Assembly: GCF_019303495.1 (NCBI RefSeq)
Contig: NZ_JAEVFI010000013.1
Span: 3,705 to 67,704 of the forward strand
DNA: 64,000 nt
Source of the DNA: Streptomyces sp. JJ66
GTDB lineage: Bacteria > Actinomycetota > Actinomycetes > Streptomycetales > Streptomycetaceae
Reading direction: 5' to 3'
Shown here: positions 10,751 to 50,098 of the stretch, piece by piece
Layout: each line of letters opens with the position of its first letter
Position numbering within the stretch: the stretch's first letter is position 1
Notes under the pieces: generated by a model
What the model was told of the DNA's origin: nothing
Databases searched by the model: none
Seen by the model: only the letters and a program-made list of their open reading frames with translations
Program-made: the position numbers and the translations under genes

Positions 10751-13132
10751 CTACAACAGGCCGTCCCACAGCTGTTCCAGCAGCACCGACCACCAGTTCT
10801 CCGGGTGGGCCAGCGCCGCCGGGTCCAGCGCGGCGAGCTGCTGCTGGAAGTCCACCGTCCAGCGGCCCGCCTGATCGGGCGTCAACCCATAGCGCAGCCG
10901 CCACATGCGGCCCGCCATCGCCAGGCACCGGGTGAACTCCGGCAGCCCGGTGTTGACGAACTGCGCCGCCGCGGGCTGCCCGTTCGGCGCGGCCTCCAGC
11001 GGGACGGCGACGAGGTGCGCGGTGCCGTACTGCACGCACAGCTGGCGGCCGAAGTCGCTGCCCATCACCAGGTAGGAACCGGCGTCCGGGCCCGGCCGCA
11101 CCCCGCGCTCCTGCGCCAGCTCCGCCAGCGTCGGCACCGGGCGGCCCGGCTGCGCCTGCGCCCAGAAGAGGGGACCGAACTCCAGCGGCAGTCCCGCCCA
11201 CACCAGCGTGTGCGCCACCGTCTCGGGCACCCCCTGCCGGGACACCGCGCGCTGGTCGAAACGGAACACGCCCTGCGGGCCGAACGCCTGGAGCAGCTCG
11301 TGCCCGATCGCGTCCGGCGGCACCGGCTGCGCCTGTGGCACCGGATGGAGCGGCGCCCGCACCGGCGCGGGGCGCGCCGGACCGTCGGCCACCTGGTGCA
11401 ACTCCCCCTGGTGGGCGAGCAGGTGCGCCATACCCTGCTGGCGCGAGTCGTGGTCGGTGCCGTAGGGAGCGGTGTGGCTCACCCGTACCTGCGGCCAGGT
11501 CTCGCGGATCATCCGGGCGCAGTAGCCGCCCGGCAGGTCGCACGGCTCCAACTCCGTGTGCAGCTCCAGCACCTGCTGCGGCGGCACGTTCATCGACCGC
11601 AGCTCGTAGAGGATCTGCCACTCCGGGTGCGGCAGACCCGGCGCGGAGCGGCGGATCACCTGCTGCTCGGAGCCGTCCGGCGCGCGGTAGCGCAACACCG
11701 CCATGTACCCGGGGCCGACCATCGGCACCCCGGGCTGCTGCGGGTACCCGTACGCGGGCGGCTGGCCACCGGGACCGCCGTGCTGCGGGGGGTGCCCGGG
11801 CGGTGCCTGGGCGTGCGGCGGGGCAGGCTGCGGCGGGGGCGGCGGTGCGCCGGGTCCGGGTCCGGGTCCGGCGAGCATCGTCGCCGCGTGGTGCACGCCG
11901 CCGCCGGGCTGGTTCGGGGCGAGCGGGGGAGGCGGGGCCGTGGGGTCACCGCCGGTCTCCGGGGAGCCGTGCGGCGCCTGCTGTGGTTCTCCCGGTGCCG
12001 GTGCCGGTGCCGGTGCTTGGCCCTGTGACGCTACGTCGCCGGCGGACATCATCTGCGTCGGCACGTAGCCGCCTGCGACCCCGCCCGGTGCGGGGGTGCC
12101 CGGGCGACGCCCCGCACCCGGGACGCCCGGTTCGCCCGGGGGCGGTGGCACCGTCGGGCCGCGTCCGCGCGACGAGGTGGGGCGCACCTTGCTGGTGGCG
12201 GCGTAGGCGATGCCCTCCTCGCCGGCTGGGTGCGGCGGGTTGTCGTCCGCCGGGGAGGGCGGGGCTTGCGGGCTCGTTGCGGGCGGGCTCAGGCGGGTGT
12301 GCGGCAGACTGCTGCCGTCGGGCAGCAACTCGGTGTGGGCTTCCACCGCCGGGCCGTGGGCTCCGGGGCCGGCGGGCGGGTCGTCGTCCGCGTCGCTGCC
12401 GCTGAGCGGGGGCGTGAGCACCGTGGCGGGCGGTGCGACGGACTCGCCCGCGCCGGAGTCCGAGGTGTCCGCCCAGCCGCCGACCGCACGCGGCGTGTCC
12501 TGCGGCGCTGGCGCGGCGGTCGCCGTGGCGTCGTCCCCGGGCCGCGTCGCGTCCGGCTCCGACGGCGGCTGGCCGGGCGCGGGGTCGGCGGCGAGTGCCT
12601 CCGACGCGGGGGTCGGCGTCACGTCACCACCCTGGGCCGTACCCCCCGGCGCTGCGTCACCCGGCACCCCGTCATCCGGGGCCGCGTCACCCGGCGTGCC
12701 TTCGCTCGGGGACCCGGCGTCCCGGGCGCCGCCGTGGGGGCGGTGGTCAGGGATGCCGAGGCGGTCGGCCGCCTCCTGGAGCCATTCGGGCGGCGTCAGC
12801 AGGAACGACGTCGCGTTCAGGTCCACGCGCTGCTTCGGCACCGGGGACGCGGGCGGCTCCGTGCGCGCGCCGTACTCCTCCTCGTACCGGCGGATCACCT
12901 CACCGACCGGCAGCCCCGGCCACAGCGTGGACTCCCCGCTGTCGCGGGCGATGACCAGCCGTGCGCTGCCGTCGTCCGAACGCGGTCCCTCCGCCCGGTC
13001 CTCGGCCCACACCACGAACCCGAGGTCGAACTCGCGTACCCGCACCGCCCGGTGCTGGTACGCCGGAACGCCGCCGTTGACCCAGCGCTCCGCCCGCTCC
13101 TGCGCCTGTGCGAACGTCACCACTGCGCTCAC
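10751..13132 (-). CDS. Multidomain protein: Imm35-like domain, nucleic-acid deaminase-like domain and SUKH-4 domain
   Basis: A 793-residue protein starting at GTG 13132, whose GTGA overlaps the stop of the upstream nuclease/SUKH gene. Residues ~5-90 look like an immunity-protein-35 (YrhB-type) fold (VWAEDRAEG, LVIARDSGE, VGEVIRRYEEEYG). Residues ~140-475 are a Pro/Gly/Ala-rich linker. Residues ~481-575 look like a polymorphic-toxin deaminase: HPEW (His502, Glu504) and PC-x6-C (Cys531, Cys538) form a plausible zinc site. Residues ~610-793 resemble SUKH-4 (GVFRFDQRAV, LAMAGRMWRLRYG, NWWSVLLEQLWDGL). No signal peptide or secretion domain is present. Domain calls are by motif; the catalytic residues look intact. 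Confidence 0.7.
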   Translation of the reverse strand: MSAVVTFAQAQERAERWVNGGVPAYQHRAVRVREFDLGFVVWAEDRAEGPRSDDGSARLVIARDSGESTLWPGLPVGEVIRRYEEEYGARTEPPASPVPKQRVDLNATSFLLTPPEWLQEAADRLGIPDHRPHGGARDAGSPSEGTPGDAAPDDGVPGDAAPGGTAQGGDVTPTPASEALAADPAPGQPPSEPDATRPGDDATATAAPAPQDTPRAVGGWADTSDSGAGESVAPPATVLTPPLSGSDADDDPPAGPGAHGPAVEAHTELLPDGSSLPHTRLSPPATSPQAPPSPADDNPPHPAGEEGIAYAATSKVRPTSSRGRGPTVPPPPGEPGVPGAGRRPGTPAPGGVAGGYVPTQMMSAGDVASQGQAPAPAPAPGEPQQAPHGSPETGGDPTAPPPPLAPNQPGGGVHHAATMLAGPGPGPGAPPPPPQPAPPHAQAPPGHPPQHGGPGGQPPAYGYPQQPGVPMVGPGYMAVLRYRAPDGSEQQVIRRSAPGLPHPEWQILYELRSMNVPPQQVLELHTELEPCDLPGGYCARMIRETWPQVRVSHTAPYGTDHDSRQQGMAHLLAHQGELHQVADGPARPAPVRAPLHPVPQAQPVPPDAIGHELLQAFGPQGVFRFDQRAVSRQGVPETVAHTLVWAGLPLEFGPLFWAQAQPGRPVPTLAELAQERGVRPGPDAGSYLVMGSDFGRQLCVQYGTAHLVAVPLEAAPNGQPAAAQFVNTGLPEFTRCLAMAGRMWRLRYGLTPDQAGRWTVDFQQQLAALDPAALAHPENWWSVLLEQLWDGLL

Positions 13133-39783: not shown

Positions 39784-42226
<2,443 letters not shown>

Positions 42227-42921: not shown

Positions 42922-43509
42922 ATGGACACTCCGCCGCCCCCGACCGACTCCGCGCCGCCCACCGAGGCGGACGTCGCCGCCTTCCGGGCGCAGCTCGGGC
43001 GGCCCCCGCGCGGCCTGCGCGCCATCGCGCACCGCTGCCCCTGCGGACAGCCCGACGTCGTGGAGACCGCCCCCCGGCTGGAGGACGGCACGCCGTTCCC
43101 CACCACGTACTACCTGACCTGCCCGCGCGCCGCCTCCGCGATCGGCACGCTGGAGGCGGAGGGGGTGATGAAGGAGATGAGCAAGCGCCTGGCCACCGAT
43201 CCGGAGCTGGCCGCCGCCTACCGCGCCGCCCACGAGGACTACCTCGCCCGCCGCGACGCCATCGAGGTGCTGGAGGGCTTCCCCAGCGCGGGCGGTATGC
43301 CCGACCGCGTCAAGTGCCTGCACGTCCTCGTCGCGCACTCGCTCGCCGCCGGACCCGGGGTCAACCCGCTGGGGGACGAGGCCATCGCCCTGCTGCCGCA
43401 GTGGTGGCGCAAGGGCCCGTGCGTGGCGCCCGGTGTGCCCCGCGAGGAGAGCGTCTCCCGCGACGAGCTGCCTGACGAGACGTCCGACGCCGCCGAGGAG
43501 AGCGCCTGA
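42922..43509 (+). CDS. DUF501 family protein
   Basis: A 195-residue protein of the actinobacterial family that almost always lies between divIC and ppx. The body (~18-170) has the conserved LGRPPRGLRAIAHRCPCGQP, PFPTTYYLTCPRA and MPDRVKCLHVLVAHSLAAGPG blocks with several conserved Cys and His, suggesting metal binding. The last ~20 residues are acidic. Function unknown. Its TGA overlaps the ppx ATG by one base. Confidence 0.88.
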   Translation: MDTPPPPTDSAPPTEADVAAFRAQLGRPPRGLRAIAHRCPCGQPDVVETAPRLEDGTPFPTTYYLTCPRAASAIGTLEAEGVMKEMSKRLATDPELAAAYRAAHEDYLARRDAIEVLEGFPSAGGMPDRVKCLHVLVAHSLAAGPGVNPLGDEAIALLPQWWRKGPCVAPGVPREESVSRDELPDETSDAAEESA

Positions 43510-44453
43510 TGACCCGCGTCGCCGCCGTGGACTGCGGCACCAACTCCATCCGCCTGCTGGTTGCCGACGTCGATCCGGTCACCGGGACGGCCACGGAGCT
43601 GGACCGGCGCATGCGGATCGTGCGCCTGGGCCAGGGCGTGGACCGCACCGGGCGGCTGGCCCCCGAGGCGCTGGAGCGCACCTTCGCCGCCTGCCGCGAG
43701 TACGCCGGTGTCATCCGCTCGCTCGGTGCCGAGCGCACCCGGTTCGTCGCCACCTCCGCCACCCGGGACGCCAGCAACCGCGAGGTGTTCGTACGCGGCG
43801 TCGTGGACACCCTCGGCGTGGAGCCGGAGGTCATCACCGGCGACCAGGAAGCCGAGTTCTCCTTCACCGGCGCCACCCGGGGCCTGACCGGCCCCGGTTT
43901 CCCGGCGCCCTACCTCGTGGTGGACATCGGCGGCGGCTCCACCGAACTCGTCGTCGGCTCCGACGGCGTGGCGGCGGCCCGCAGCGTGGACATCGGCTGC
44001 GTGCGCATGACCGAACGCCACCTGGTGCGCGATGGCGTGGTGAGCGATCCGCCGACGGCCGAGCAGATCACCGCCATACGGGCCGACGTGGACGCCGCCC
44101 TCGACCTGGCCGGGCAGACCGTGCCGCTGGCCCGCGCCCACACCCTGGTCGGGCTCGCCGGATCGGTGACGACGGTGGCGGGCATCGCCCTCGGCCTGCC
44201 GGAGTACGACCCGGCCGCCATCCACCACAGCCGCGTGCCCCTCGCCCGGGTCCGCGAGATCACCGCCCGCCTGCTGGCCTCCACCCACGCCGAGCGCGAG
44301 ACCATCGGGGTGCTGCACCCCGGCCGTATCGACGTCATCGCGGCCGGCGCGCTGATCCTCCAGTCGGTGATGGAACACTGCGGCGCCCGGGAAGTCGTCG
44401 TCAGCGAACACGACATCCTCGACGGCATCGCCTTCGCCACCGCCGCCGGATAG
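43509..44453 (+). CDS. ppx: Ppx/GppA exopolyphosphatase family protein
   Basis: A 314-residue phosphatase of the short actinobacterial type (no C-terminal HD domain). The ASKHA-fold phosphate loops are VAAVDCGTNSIRLLVADV at the N-terminus and VVDIGGGSTELVVG at ~138-151. LVGLAGSVTTVAGIALG and HPGRIDVIAAGALIL follow. Members hydrolyse polyphosphate or (p)ppGpp; the short type 1 enzymes may prefer short polyphosphate. Translationally coupled to the DUF501 gene. Confidence 0.9.
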   Translation: MTRVAAVDCGTNSIRLLVADVDPVTGTATELDRRMRIVRLGQGVDRTGRLAPEALERTFAACREYAGVIRSLGAERTRFVATSATRDASNREVFVRGVVDTLGVEPEVITGDQEAEFSFTGATRGLTGPGFPAPYLVVDIGGGSTELVVGSDGVAAARSVDIGCVRMTERHLVRDGVVSDPPTAEQITAIRADVDAALDLAGQTVPLARAHTLVGLAGSVTTVAGIALGLPEYDPAAIHHSRVPLARVREITARLLASTHAERETIGVLHPGRIDVIAAGALILQSVMEHCGAREVVVSEHDILDGIAFATAAG

Positions 44454-44460
44454 GCGGCAG

Positions 44461-44500
44461 CGTGACCGCTGGGCGCTGTCCCCGTACGCCCGCGGTCACG
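44461..44500. terminator. Bidirectional terminator between ppx and nrdB
   Basis: CGTGACCGC (44461-44469) pairs perfectly with GCGGTCACG (44492-44500), between converging genes. Confidence 0.65.
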
Positions 44501-44513
44501 TCGGCCGGAGGCG

Positions 44514-45557
44514 TTAGAAGTCGTCGTCGAAGGAGACGGTGCCCTCTACGGCGACCTGGTAGGCGGAGGGGCGGCGTTCGAAGAAGTTGGTGAGTTCCTG
44601 GACGTCCTGGAGGTCCAGGAAGGGGAAGGGGTTGGCCGAGCCGAACACGGGGTCGAGGCCGAGGCGGGTCAGGCGCTGGTCGGCGACGCACTCCAGGTAC
44701 GCGCGCATGGACTCGGTGTTCATGCCGGGCAGGCCCTCGCCGCACAGGTCGCGCGCGAACTGCAGTTCCGCTTCCACGGCTTCGCGCAGCATCGCCGTCA
44801 CCTCGCGGCTCATATCGGCGTCGAACAGCTCCGGCTCCTCCGCCCGCACGGTGTCCACGACGTGGAACGCGAAGTCCATGTGGCAGCTCTCGTCGCGGAA
44901 CACCCAGTTGGTGCCGGTGGCCAGGCCGTGCAGCAGGCCACGGGAGCGGAACCAGTAGACGTAGGCGAAGGCGCCGTAGAAGAACAGCCCTTCGATGCAG
45001 GCGGCGAAGCAGATCAGGTTGAGCAGGAAACGGCGGCGGTCGGCCTGGGTGCGCAGGGTGGTGAGGTCGTCTACCGAGTCCATCCAGCGGAAGCAGAACC
45101 GCGCCTTCTCACGGATGGACGGAATGTTCTCCACGGCCGCGAACGCCTCGGCGCGCTCGTCCGGATCGGGCAGGTAGGTGTCCAGCAGGGTCAGGTAGAA
45201 CTGGACGTGCACGGCCTCCTCGAACAGCTGCCGGGACAGGTACAGCCGCGCCTCGGGCGCGTTGATGTGCCGGTAGAGGGTCAGGACGAGGTTGTTGGCG
45301 ACGATCGAGTCCCCGGTGGCGAAGAAGGCGACGAGACGGCCGATGAGGTGCTGCTCGCCGGGGGAGAGCTGGGCGAGGTCGGCGACGTCGGAGTGCAGGT
45401 CCACCTCTTCGACCGTCCAGGTGTTCTTGATCGCGTCGCGGTAGCGGTCGTAGAACTCCGGGTAGCGCATCGGGCGCAGGGTCAGCTCGAAGCCCGGGTC
45501 GAGCAGGTGCTGGGCGGGCCGCGTGGCGGCGGACTCGGGAGCGGTGGGGGCGGTCAT
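44514..45557 (-). CDS. nrdB: Class Ia ribonucleotide reductase small subunit
   Basis: A 347-residue diiron radical protein. Iron ligands appear in FFATGDSIVANN (Asp), SRQLFEEAVHVQFY (Glu and His), FAACIEGLFFYGAF (Glu) and FRDESCHMDFAFHV (Glu and His). The C-terminal tail ends in SFDDDF, which docks in NrdA. ATG 45557 overlaps the nrdA stop. In S. coelicolor a third gene, nrdS, follows nrdB; here a converging ppx gene lies there instead. Confidence 0.95.
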   Translation of the reverse strand: MTAPTAPESAATRPAQHLLDPGFELTLRPMRYPEFYDRYRDAIKNTWTVEEVDLHSDVADLAQLSPGEQHLIGRLVAFFATGDSIVANNLVLTLYRHINAPEARLYLSRQLFEEAVHVQFYLTLLDTYLPDPDERAEAFAAVENIPSIREKARFCFRWMDSVDDLTTLRTQADRRRFLLNLICFAACIEGLFFYGAFAYVYWFRSRGLLHGLATGTNWVFRDESCHMDFAFHVVDTVRAEEPELFDADMSREVTAMLREAVEAELQFARDLCGEGLPGMNTESMRAYLECVADQRLTRLGLDPVFGSANPFPFLDLQDVQELTNFFERRPSAYQVAVEGTVSFDDDF

Positions 45558-47896
45558 TGGCAGGCCTCGCAGGATTCGGGGTTCTCCAGGGAGCAGGCGG
45601 CGGCGTCCTCGGGGGTGACCGGCTGCCTCGGTACGGCCGCGCCGCGCGCGGCGGCGGCGATGCGCGTCGCGGGGCGCGAGCGCAGGTAGTACGTCGTCTT
45701 CAGGCCGCGCTTCCACGCGTAGGCGTACATCGAGCTGAGCTTGCCGATGGTGGGGGCGGCCAGGAACAGGTTCAGCGACTGGCCCTGGTCCAGGTAGGGC
45801 GTGCGGTCGGCGGCCAGGTCGATCAGCGCGCGCTGCGGGATCTCCCACGCGGTGCGGTACAGCTCGCGCACCTCCGGCGGCAGCCCGGGCAGCTCCTGTA
45901 CGGAGCCGTTCGCCTCGCGCAACGCCTGCCGGGTCTGCTCGTGCCACTGGCCGAGCCGCTTGAGGTCGGCCACGAGGTAGGCGTTGACCTGAAGGAACTC
46001 CCCGCTCAGCGTCTCGCGCTTGAACAGGTTGGACACCTGCGGCTCGACGCACTCGAAGACCCCGGCGATGGAGGCGATCGTCGCCGTCGGCGCGATGGCG
46101 AGCAGCAGCGCGTTGCGCATGCCGGTGCGGGCGATCCGCTCGCGCAGCGCGGCCCAGCGCTCGGGCCACGCGGGGGCGGCGCCGGGATAGTGGTCGGGGT
46201 GCAGTACGCCGCGCGCGGCGCGGGTGGCGGACCAGGCCGGGAGCGGACCGTGCCGCTCGGCCAGCTCGGCGGACGTCTCGTAGGCGGCGAGCATGACGCG
46301 TTCGGAGATCCGCGTGGACAGCGTGCGGGCCGCCTCGGAGGCGAAGGGCAGGCGCAGCCGGAAGAACACGTCCTGCAGGCCCATCAGCCCCAGGCCGACC
46401 GGGCGCCAGCGGGCGTTGGAGCGGCCCGCCTGCTCGGTGGGGTAGTAGTTCACGTCCACCACCCGGTCCAGGAAGGTGACGGCGGTGCGGACGGTGGCGT
46501 CCAGCCGTTCCCAGTCCAGCTCGCCCTCGTCGGTCAGGTGCGCGGCCAGGTTGACGGAGCCGAGGTTGCACACGGCGGTCTCGCCGTCCTCGGTGACCTC
46601 CAGGATCTCCGTGCACAGGTTGGAGGAGTGGATGACGTGGCCGGGCTCGGCGGTCTGGTTGGCGGTGCGGTTGGCGGCGTCCTTGAACGTCATCCAGCCG
46701 TTTCCGGTCTGCGCGAGGGTGCGCATCATGCGGGCGTACAGCTGGCGGGCGGGCACGGTGCGCTGGGCCAGGCCCGCCGCCTCGGCCGCCCGGTAGGCGG
46801 CGTCGAACGGTGCGCCCCACAGGTCGGGCAGCTCGGGCACGTCAGCGGGGGAGAACAGCGACCACGGGGCGTCCGCCTCGACGCGGCGCATGAACTCGTC
46901 CGGAATCCAGTGCGCCAGGTTCAGGTTGTGGGTACGGCGCGCTTCCTCGCCGGTGTTGTCGCGCAGTTCGAGGAACTCCTCGATGTCGGCATGCCAGGTC
47001 TCCAGGTAGACGCAGGCCGCGCCCTTGCGCCGTCCGCCCTGGTTGACGGCGGCCACCGAGGCGTCCAGCGTGCGCAGGAACGGCACGATGCCGCCGGAGT
47101 GCCCGTTGGTGCCCCGGATCAGCGAACCCCGGGCGCGGATGCGTGAGTAGGCGATGCCGATGCCGCCCGCGTGCTTGGACAACCGCGCCACCTGGTGGTA
47201 GCGCTCGTAGATCGAGTCCAGCTCGTCGCGCGGGGAGTCCAGCAGGTAGCAGGACGACATCTGCGGGTGCCGGGTCCCGGAGTTGAACAGGGTGGGCGAG
47301 GACGGCAGGTAGGCCAGGGTGCTCGTGAGCCGGTACAGCTCCGCCACCTCGCCGAGTGCCGCCTCGCTGGCGTCGGCCGCCAGACCGCAGGCGACGCGCA
47401 GCCAGAAGTGCTGCGGCGTCTCGATCACCTGCCGGGTCCGCGGGTGGCGCAGCAGGTAGCGGCTGTAGACGGTGCGCAGGCCGAAGTACTCGAACCGGTC
47501 GTCGGCGCCCGCACCTTCCGCGCGCTCCACCAGCGCGTCGAGCGCGTCGGCATGGGCGGCGACGAAGGCGGCCGTGCGGTCGGCGATCAGGCCCTCCCGG
47601 TGGCCGAGCGCGACGGAGGCCGCGAACGACACCGCGCCCTGCCCGGCGGCCTCCTCGCGCACCGCGCGCACCAGCAGGCGGGCGGCGAGGCGGGCGTACT
47701 GCGGCTCCTCGCCGATCAGCCCGGCCGCCGCCTCGACGGCCAGGGCGCGCAACGCCGCCTCGTCGGAGCCGGGGTGCCGGCCGCGCAGCGCGGCGGCGGC
47801 CACCCGGCCGGGCTCGGTCGCGGGCAGGTCGGCGCTCGCCTCGGTGAGCTCGCGCAGCAGCAGGGCCGCTGCGGGCTCGGCGGGTGCGATGGTCAC
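45554..47896 (-). CDS. nrdA: Class Ia ribonucleotide reductase large subunit
   Basis: Reduces ribonucleotides to deoxyribonucleotides. A 780-residue protein starting at GTG 47896 after GAGGGGAAG. Catalytic features are the redox Cys in MSSCYLLDS, Asn-Cys-Glu in SSNLCTEILE, the partner Cys in AVCNLGSVN and the radical-transfer Tyr pair in LKTTYYLRSR. The C-terminal shuttle pair is ESCEACQ. The N-terminal ~100 residues replace a clear ATP cone. Control elements are two NrdR boxes and a cobalamin riboswitch upstream. Confidence 0.95.
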   Translation of the reverse strand: MTIAPAEPAAALLLRELTEASADLPATEPGRVAAAALRGRHPGSDEAALRALAVEAAAGLIGEEPQYARLAARLLVRAVREEAAGQGAVSFAASVALGHREGLIADRTAAFVAAHADALDALVERAEGAGADDRFEYFGLRTVYSRYLLRHPRTRQVIETPQHFWLRVACGLAADASEAALGEVAELYRLTSTLAYLPSSPTLFNSGTRHPQMSSCYLLDSPRDELDSIYERYHQVARLSKHAGGIGIAYSRIRARGSLIRGTNGHSGGIVPFLRTLDASVAAVNQGGRRKGAACVYLETWHADIEEFLELRDNTGEEARRTHNLNLAHWIPDEFMRRVEADAPWSLFSPADVPELPDLWGAPFDAAYRAAEAAGLAQRTVPARQLYARMMRTLAQTGNGWMTFKDAANRTANQTAEPGHVIHSSNLCTEILEVTEDGETAVCNLGSVNLAAHLTDEGELDWERLDATVRTAVTFLDRVVDVNYYPTEQAGRSNARWRPVGLGLMGLQDVFFRLRLPFASEAARTLSTRISERVMLAAYETSAELAERHGPLPAWSATRAARGVLHPDHYPGAAPAWPERWAALRERIARTGMRNALLLAIAPTATIASIAGVFECVEPQVSNLFKRETLSGEFLQVNAYLVADLKRLGQWHEQTRQALREANGSVQELPGLPPEVRELYRTAWEIPQRALIDLAADRTPYLDQGQSLNLFLAAPTIGKLSSMYAYAWKRGLKTTYYLRSRPATRIAAAARGAAVPRQPVTPEDAAACSLENPESCEACQ

Positions 47897-48014
47897 GTAG
47901 GTGCTTCCCCTCGGTCGGTTTCGGCCCCGGGGAAGGCGGCAGGCGAACGCGGGTCCGGCTGCGGCAGGGCATGCCGGCGTTCCCGTCCACCGGCCCACTC
48001 CGCGAGGCCCGGAC

Positions 48015-48125
48015 GCGTACGACGCCGCCGACAGGTACTCGGGCTCGCGCGGGCACGCCGAGGCGCGCCGCGCACACCGTTGCGGGACAGCTCCGGACTC
48101 ACACCGGATTCCCCTGCTGCGACAG
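48015..48125 (-). ncRNA. Adenosylcobalamin riboswitch of nrdAB
   Basis: On the minus strand the leader contains AGGGGAATCCGGTGTGAGTC, then CCGGAGCTGTCCCGCAACGG, and further on the B12-box equivalent GAGCCCGAGTACCTGTCGG (48046-48028). These are the hallmark core elements of cobalamin riboswitches. In Streptomyces such an element represses the class Ia operon when B12 is available for the class II enzyme NrdJ. Confidence 0.88.
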
Positions 48126-48132
48126 CGGGATG

Positions 48133-48148
48133 AGCATACATCTAGTGG
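48133..48148. promoter_or_regulatory. NrdR box 1 (promoter-proximal)
   Basis: AGCATACATCTAGTGG resembles the NrdR-box consensus (acaCwAtATaTwGtgt) and shares ACATCT with box 2. It overlaps a minus-strand -10-like TATGCT, so bound NrdR would block transcription of nrdAB. Confidence 0.75.
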
Positions 48149-48163
48149 CGGATCATGGCGTGA

Positions 48164-48179
48164 GGCCCAGATGTTGTGT
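48164..48179. promoter_or_regulatory. NrdR box 2 (promoter-distal)
   Basis: The reverse strand reads ACACAACATCTGGGCC. The gap to box 1 is 15 bp and the centre spacing is 31 bp, about three helical turns, which is the known spacing of paired NrdR boxes. Confidence 0.78.
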
Positions 48180-48700: not shown

Positions 48701-50098
48701 ATGAGCACCACGGAGCGTCCTCGAATCCTCGTCGTAGGTGGTGGGTACGTCGGTCTGTACGCAGCGCGCCGCATACTGAAGAAGATGCGGTACGGCGAGG
48801 CGACCGTGACCGTCGTGGACCCGCGCTCCTACATGACGTACCAGCCCTTCCTCCCCGAAGCGGCCGCCGGGTCCATCTCCCCCCGACACGTCGTGGTGCC
48901 GCTGCGCCGCGTTCTCCCCAAGGCGGAGGTCCTCACCGGCCGCGTCTCCACCATCGACCAGGACCGCAAGGTGGCCACCGTCACCCCGCTGGTCGGGGAG
49001 TCCTACGAGCTGCCCTTCGACTACCTGGTCATCGCGCTCGGCGCCGTCTCCCGCACCTTCCCCATCCCCGGTCTGGCGGACCAGGGCATCGGCATGAAGG
49101 GCGTCGAGGAGGCCATCGGGCTGCGCAACCACGTGCTGGAGCAGCTCGACAAGGCCGACTCCACCACCGACGAGGCCGTCCGCCGCAAGGCGCTGACCTT
49201 CGTGTTCGTCGGCGGCGGGTTCGCCGGTGCGGAAACCGTCGGCGAGATCGAGGACCTGGCGCGCGACGCCGCCGCGTACTACCCGACCATCAGCCGCGAG
49301 GACATGCGCTTCATCCTCGTGGACGTCGCCGACAAGATCCTTCCCGAGGTCGGCCCGGAGCTGGGCACGTGGGGGCGTGAACACCTGCAAAAGCGCGGTG
49401 TCGAGGTCTACCTCAAGACCGGCATGGACTCCTGCGTGGACGGCCACGTGGTGCTCAACAACGGCCTGGAGGTGGACTCCAGCACGATCGTGTGGACCGC
49501 CGGCGTCAAGCCCAACCCGGCCCTGAGCCGGTTCGGCCTGCCGCTCGGCCCGCGCGGCCACGTGGACACCCAGCCGACGCTCCAGGTCAGCGGCACCGAC
49601 TACATCTGGGCCGCTGGCGACAACGCCCAGATCCCGGACCTGGCCGCCCGCGCCGCCGGCGTCGAGAACGCCTGGTGCCCGCCGAACGCGCAGCACGCGC
49701 TGCGCCAGGCCAAGGTGCTCGGCGACAACGTCATCTCCGGCATGCGCGGCTTCCCGCAGGCGGACTACCAGCACGCCAACAAGGGCGCGGTCGCCGGTCT
49801 CGGCCTGCACAAGGGCGTCGCCATGATCGTCCTGGGCAAGAAGCTGAAGATCAGGCTCCGTGGCCGCCTCGCCTGGTACATGCACCGCACGTACCACGGC
49901 CTGGCCGTGCCGACGTGGAACCGCAAGGTCCGCGTCTTCGCCGACTGGACGCTGGGCATGTTCCTCAAGCGCGAGGTCGTCTCCCTCGGCGCCATGGAGA
50001 ACCCCCGCGAGGAGTTCTACGAGGCCGCCCGCCCCGCTCCGATGCCGCCCGCCGCCGAGGCCGACGACGTCGTACGCCAGAAGGCCCGCGCGTCGTAA
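48701..50098 (+). CDS. ndh: Type II NADH dehydrogenase (NAD(P)/FAD-dependent oxidoreductase)
   Basis: A 465-residue peripheral membrane flavoprotein that oxidises NADH and reduces menaquinone without proton pumping. The FAD dinucleotide fold ILVVGGGYVGLYAARRI is at ~9-25, the NAD fold FVFVGGGFAGAETVGEIEDLA at ~168-188, and the second FAD contact YIWAAGDNAQIPD at ~303. A basic amphipathic C-terminal region (LGKKLKIRLRGRLAWYMHRT) probably anchors it to the membrane. GATACT (48688-48693) lies 7 nt before ATG, consistent with a leaderless transcript under Rex control. Confidence 0.93.
   Translation: MSTTERPRILVVGGGYVGLYAARRILKKMRYGEATVTVVDPRSYMTYQPFLPEAAAGSISPRHVVVPLRRVLPKAEVLTGRVSTIDQDRKVATVTPLVGESYELPFDYLVIALGAVSRTFPIPGLADQGIGMKGVEEAIGLRNHVLEQLDKADSTTDEAVRRKALTFVFVGGGFAGAETVGEIEDLARDAAAYYPTISREDMRFILVDVADKILPEVGPELGTWGREHLQKRGVEVYLKTGMDSCVDGHVVLNNGLEVDSSTIVWTAGVKPNPALSRFGLPLGPRGHVDTQPTLQVSGTDYIWAAGDNAQIPDLAARAAGVENAWCPPNAQHALRQAKVLGDNVISGMRGFPQADYQHANKGAVAGLGLHKGVAMIVLGKKLKIRLRGRLAWYMHRTYHGLAVPTWNRKVRVFADWTLGMFLKREVVSLGAMENPREEFYEAARPAPMPPAAEADDVVRQKARAS

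Follow-up and report, generated by a model that had tools for sequence, protein, structure and literature searches.

The nrdAB locus and its closest described counterparts

NrdR boxes at the nrdABS operon of Streptomyces coelicolor (SCO5226-SCO5224) were reportedly described by Grinberg in 2006. Control of the same operon by a B12 riboswitch is attributed to Borovok 2006 (J Bacteriol 188:2512), as cited in PMC4991794, and NrdR binds the nrdAB and nrdRJ promoters of this organism (PMC9110341). In class I cobalamin riboswitches the hairpin P13-L13 forms a kissing contact with an L5 loop of sequence UCCCG (PMC10653944, PMC9600662), and the metE riboswitch of Mycobacterium tuberculosis is an actinobacterial cobalamin OFF switch in which the ribosome-binding site (RBS) is masked by an upstream anti-site (PMC11260477).

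We analysed a stretch of 64,000 nucleotides from Streptomyces sp. JJ66 (hereafter the window), which carries nrdAB on contig C4 of a rather small, 4.84-Mb draft genome in 66 contigs. As in S. coelicolor, the locus combines a class Ia nrdAB pair with a promoter NrdR box pair about three helical turns apart, a cobalamin aptamer in the 5′ leader and a partner nrdRJ operon elsewhere in the genome. Unlike nrdABS, it has no nrdS, and its flanks consist of a divergent oxidoreductase gene upstream and a convergent ppx gene downstream. The JJ66 leader is a well-conserved case of a known system, already established in S. coelicolor.

The large subunit gene nrdA (45554..47896, minus strand; GTG start at 47896-47894) encodes 780 amino acids that match PF02867 and PF00317 in a profile search. 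Its stop codon is overlapped, as ATGA, by the small subunit gene nrdB (44514..45557, minus strand), which matches PF00268. The subunit family matches are unambiguous, and the enzyme fits class Ia, with a TIGR02506 score of 723 bits against a cut-off of 341.05. NrdA is 90% identical to its counterpart from Streptomyces sp. JHD 1 and 77-83% identical to those of many other Streptomyces. A Pfam search of NrdA found no ATP-cone, which suggests that dATP feedback on the class Ia enzyme rests, probably, mainly on NrdR.

Probable double control by NrdR and cobalamin

The region from 47897 to 48179 is bounded precisely by the outer edge of NrdR box 1 and the base preceding the nrdA GTG. To locate the boxes we scored both strands of the window against the known consensus, using a weighted scheme and spacings of 20-59 bp. 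Box 1, ACACAACATCTGGGCC (acacaacatctgggcc), lies at 48164..48179 and box 2, CCACTAGATGTATGCT (ccactagatgtatgct), at 48133..48148, both on the minus strand. Their centres are 31 bp apart, in agreement with the first-pass annotation of this DNA. The top pair score occurred at two positions only, which we take as one near-palindromic site read once per strand, and within the scanned spacings no rival pair on either strand of the window scored as high.

The arrangement is conserved among relatives. We collected 80 loci, of which three lie on contigs that start too near nrdA, leaving 77 leaders; box 1 is conserved in all of these, and the pair is present at 31 or 32 bp in 77/77. For one leader (L082) the scan gave another spacing, yet box 2 can be seen in its usual form downstream of box 1. 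The end of box 2, ATGTATG(C/A)T, occurs once in each of the 77. A centre spacing of 31-32 bp corresponds to a gap of 15-16 bp between the 16-bp boxes, and NrdR binds best with 15-17 bp between boxes (PMC12051234). From the conservation of these sites we infer that NrdR binds at the JJ66 boxes. The pair appears in two forms. At a spacing of 31 bp box 2 reads gcac(a/t)agatgtatgct; at 32 bp it is mostly cccccacatgtatgct, a near-inverted copy of box 1. The sequence of box 2 and the spacing seem to shift together (leaders L060 and L049 compared with L063).

The 3′ half of box 2, TATGCT (48138-48133), is presumed to be the -10 hexamer. Because an E. coli-type promoter scan found no promoter, we infer the promoter's position rather than read it from a match.

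In the same leader, a covariance search matched the cobalamin riboswitch family RF00174 at 48013..48141 (minus strand). The hit scores 37.7 bits, above the gathering score of 31.5, with an E-value of 5.5e-6 for the window, so that the B12 riboswitch recognised in the first-pass annotation stands. Three diagnostic elements are present, with limits read from the sequence: the closing stem P1, CCGCUG/CGGCGG (48128-48123 with 48030-48025), loop L5, UCCCG (48087-48083), and the B12 box (48046-48030), all on the minus strand. When 73 leaders were aligned, the core of the aptamer proved conserved, and CTGTCCCGCAAC (CUGUCCCGCAAC), the segment with L5, was invariant in 73/73. A leader query found matches in all 36 other genomes of the genus that were searched; other families of the order gave short matches at most, mainly to the aptamer core.

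Four further cobalamin riboswitches exceed the cut-off in the JJ66 genome, and two of them score higher than the nrdAB copy. This modest score could be read as the mark of a decayed remnant, with NrdR as the sole control of nrdAB. Given that P1, L5, the B12 box and P13 are all intact and conserved over the genus, we consider such decay extremely improbable. The top-scoring copy of the genome, at 79.8 bits (L001; G000:C14:7648-7772), precedes a CobD/CobQ-like pair of cobalamin biosynthesis genes, as read from translated open reading frames.

The other half of the circuit lies on contig C11, where nrdJ (TIGR02504, 616 bits) and nrdR (TIGR00244, 153.9 bits against a cut-off of 124.65) are adjacent, with a second 31-bp NrdR box pair about 150 bp before nrdR. 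With nrdJ, nrdR, this second box pair and the further B12 riboswitches, all parts of the S. coelicolor scheme are therefore present. The first-pass annotation had expected nrdJ in the genome and had ascribed to the leader the double NrdR and B12 logic of Streptomyces class Ia reductases; nrdJ was found beside nrdR, every in-silico prediction of that logic held, and the leader is conserved genus-wide. We are therefore highly confident that nrdAB is doubly controlled by NrdR and the B12 riboswitch, in the standard Streptomyces arrangement. Control of an oxygen-dependent, B12-independent reductase by dNTP status (through NrdR) and B12 status (through the riboswitch) would thus be a fixed feature of the genus.

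The RNA between the aptamer and nrdA

Two hairpins that had not figured in the first-pass annotation form a conserved RNA 3′ of the aptamer. Just 3′ of P1, at 47984..48015 on the minus strand, lies a near-invariant hairpin, CGUCC-G-GGCC / loop UCGCGGAGUG / GGCC-GGU-GGACG. Over 42 distinct sequences 99.2% of its pair cells are standard, compared with 26-56% in slid-partner controls. Two-sided (compensatory) change was seen at one pair only, and the weakness of the covariation reflects how little the element varies. The hairpin is GC-rich and stable, at -17.8 kcal/mol. By analogy with the class I family, both its location and the GG(A/G) motif in its loop are consistent with P13-L13. The loop could pair with the invariant L5, so that a kissing contact is plausible. 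The leader in this respect resembles the class I adenosylcobalamin riboswitches with an L5-L13 kissing loop, such as that of Priestia megaterium metE (PMC10653944, PMC9600662), which share the L5 sequence UCCCG and a P13-L13 just downstream of P1 whose loop is able to pair with L5. Unlike the P. megaterium type, it has no U-tract intrinsic terminator according to a terminator scan of the leader, and it carries instead a hairpin covering the RBS.

In this second hairpin (47904..47935, minus strand) CUUCCCC at 47935-47929 is predicted to pair with GGGGAAG at 47910-47904, and thereby with the nrdA ribosome-binding site GAGGGGAAG. Across 73 leaders, whose relatedness makes the comparison a descriptive one, the mean pairing probability of the RBS is 0.80. 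Shuffling the upstream sequence lowers it to 0.66, and the RBS is paired above its own shuffles in 71/73. For the window leader alone the gap is small (0.71 against 0.68). The stem sequence differs between individual folds, with GGA/UCC in L080 and GGC/GCC in others. Whole leaders fold no better than shuffled sequence (z = 0.28).

Two further ideas about the leader were discarded. As the switch, direct pairing of a P13 arm with the sequence before the RBS was barely above shuffles (44-45 of the 73 leaders). In the JJ66 window there is an open frame whose stop is the TGA within the GTGA at the nrdA start, and a conserved upstream open reading frame ending there was rejected on the free variation of its open length and start codons among relatives.

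The pairing of the RBS, together with the lack of a U-tract terminator, favours translation-level control, with secondary loss of transcript possible; on the predicted folds, we hold with moderate confidence that the conserved RNA 3′ of the aptamer favours control at translation initiation. The fuller proposal is more tentative, and we put it somewhat short of an even chance: that the riboswitch acts by translation, that its platform is the genus-wide P13-L13 plus the RBS hairpin, and that the reported fall in nrdAB transcript is secondary, through Rho or decay once translation stops. Premature termination, with P13 or a neighbour as part of a terminator that is either a U-less, intrinsic-like hairpin or a site of direct Rho recruitment, is likewise a serious candidate to which we assign slightly less than an even probability. 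It concerns the output step only and leaves double control as it is. The title of Borovok 2006, as cited in PMC4991794, speaks of control of transcription, transcripts were found to end prematurely at another cobalamin riboswitch, in S. griseus (PMC8914203), and the stability and GC content of P13 would suit such a role; the leader, however, has no T-tract terminator, and the element that is consistently paired is the hairpin over the RBS. The conserved platform offers a concrete and cheap handle on how the riboswitch shuts the operon.

These elements allow us to propose the following mechanism. NrdR carrying dATP and ATP would bind both boxes, three helical turns apart, and block the promoter, whose -10 would lie within box 2; at high dATP it would repress both nrdAB and nrdRJ. 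The transcript would begin at or just before P1 of the adenosylcobalamin aptamer. When adenosylcobalamin is plentiful and the B12-dependent NrdJ is able to work, the ligand-bound aptamer would hold P13-L13 via the L5 contact, the hairpin over the nrdA RBS would form and nrdAB would be switched off. When B12 is scarce, nrdAB would be expressed as a backup. Like the M. tuberculosis metE riboswitch, the JJ66 leader would in this case be an OFF switch with its RBS masked by an upstream anti-site, although it precedes a different gene and shows no conserved upstream open reading frame among relatives.

nrdS and the flanks of nrdAB

The first-pass annotation had presented the operon as lacking nrdS. 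The absence is real: the AraC-type gene nrdS is missing downstream of nrdB in JJ66, and a search of the rest of the genome found no orthologue, the best homologue being a paralogue of 46-47% identity. It is not peculiar to this strain. With S. griseus NrdS as query we surveyed the 74 relatives for which 4 kb or more of downstream sequence was available; nrdS is present in 27 and absent in 47 and, where present, lies 245-3843 nt after nrdB. A 35% match upstream of nrdA in L030 is not nrdS and was excluded from these counts. In a tree of NrdA, the clade containing JJ66 is without nrdS in 30/30 scorable rows, and all loci that have the gene fall in the other large clade. Since nrdS is missing in most of the surveyed relatives and throughout the JJ66 clade, its absence is ordinary.

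Searches of 17 whole genomes sharpened the distinction between the gene and its paralogues. The five with nrdS beside nrdB match at 76-100%; eleven of the twelve without it give best matches of 46-49%, to paralogues that elsewhere co-occur with true nrdS. The remaining genome (L036) has no nrdS beside nrdB and carries a 64% relative elsewhere. The simplest reading is that nrdS was gained in the other clade, with some losses, or was lost early. Judged from these sequence comparisons, its lack in JJ66 is an ancestral or clade-wide state and not a strain-specific loss.

If loss of nrdS had rewired the operon, control of nrdAB in JJ66 would differ from that in nrdS-bearing Streptomyces, and the absence of both gene and orthologue accords with this. 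We regard such rewiring as very unlikely, given how common the absence is among relatives and in the JJ66 clade. The boxes and riboswitch are alike in both groups and, even where nrdS is present, it lies at distances of 245-3843 nt from nrdB. Double control, in other words, does not track the presence of this companion gene.

Convergence of a ppx gene on nrdB, another point of the first-pass annotation, was confirmed: a ppx/GppA-type exopolyphosphatase gene lies at 43509..44453 on the plus strand with 60 bp between the two (TIGR03706, E = 4.3e-64, under the model's curated cut-off). Between them, at 44461..44500, the sequence contains a 9-bp inverted repeat, cgtgaccgc / gcggtcacg, which has no strand of its own. 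It is a possible two-way terminator lacking a T tract, and a scan for T-tract terminators did not pick it up. Upstream of nrdAB and divergent from it lies a gene for an NAD(P)H-dehydrogenase-like FAD oxidoreductase (48702-50098, plus strand).

We considered ppx as a conserved neighbour and ruled it out, as it lies beside nrdB in 0/80 relative loci within the available sequence. The upstream oxidoreductase is shared with only the closest relative, L006 (877-2650), among the 80 loci; in the others, matches to the window are limited to nrdAB and the leader. The flanks of nrdAB are therefore variable, and nrdAB lies in a rearranged context in the JJ66 lineage. Inspected by eye, L006 has on the 3′ side of nrdB, where ppx would be, an open reading frame resembling a mutator-type transposase (10933-12189, minus strand) and more mobile-looking frames. 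The window also contains a c-di-AMP (ydaO/yuaA) riboswitch, RF00379, at 39809-39969 on the plus strand, which scores 47 bits where the cut-off is 38.
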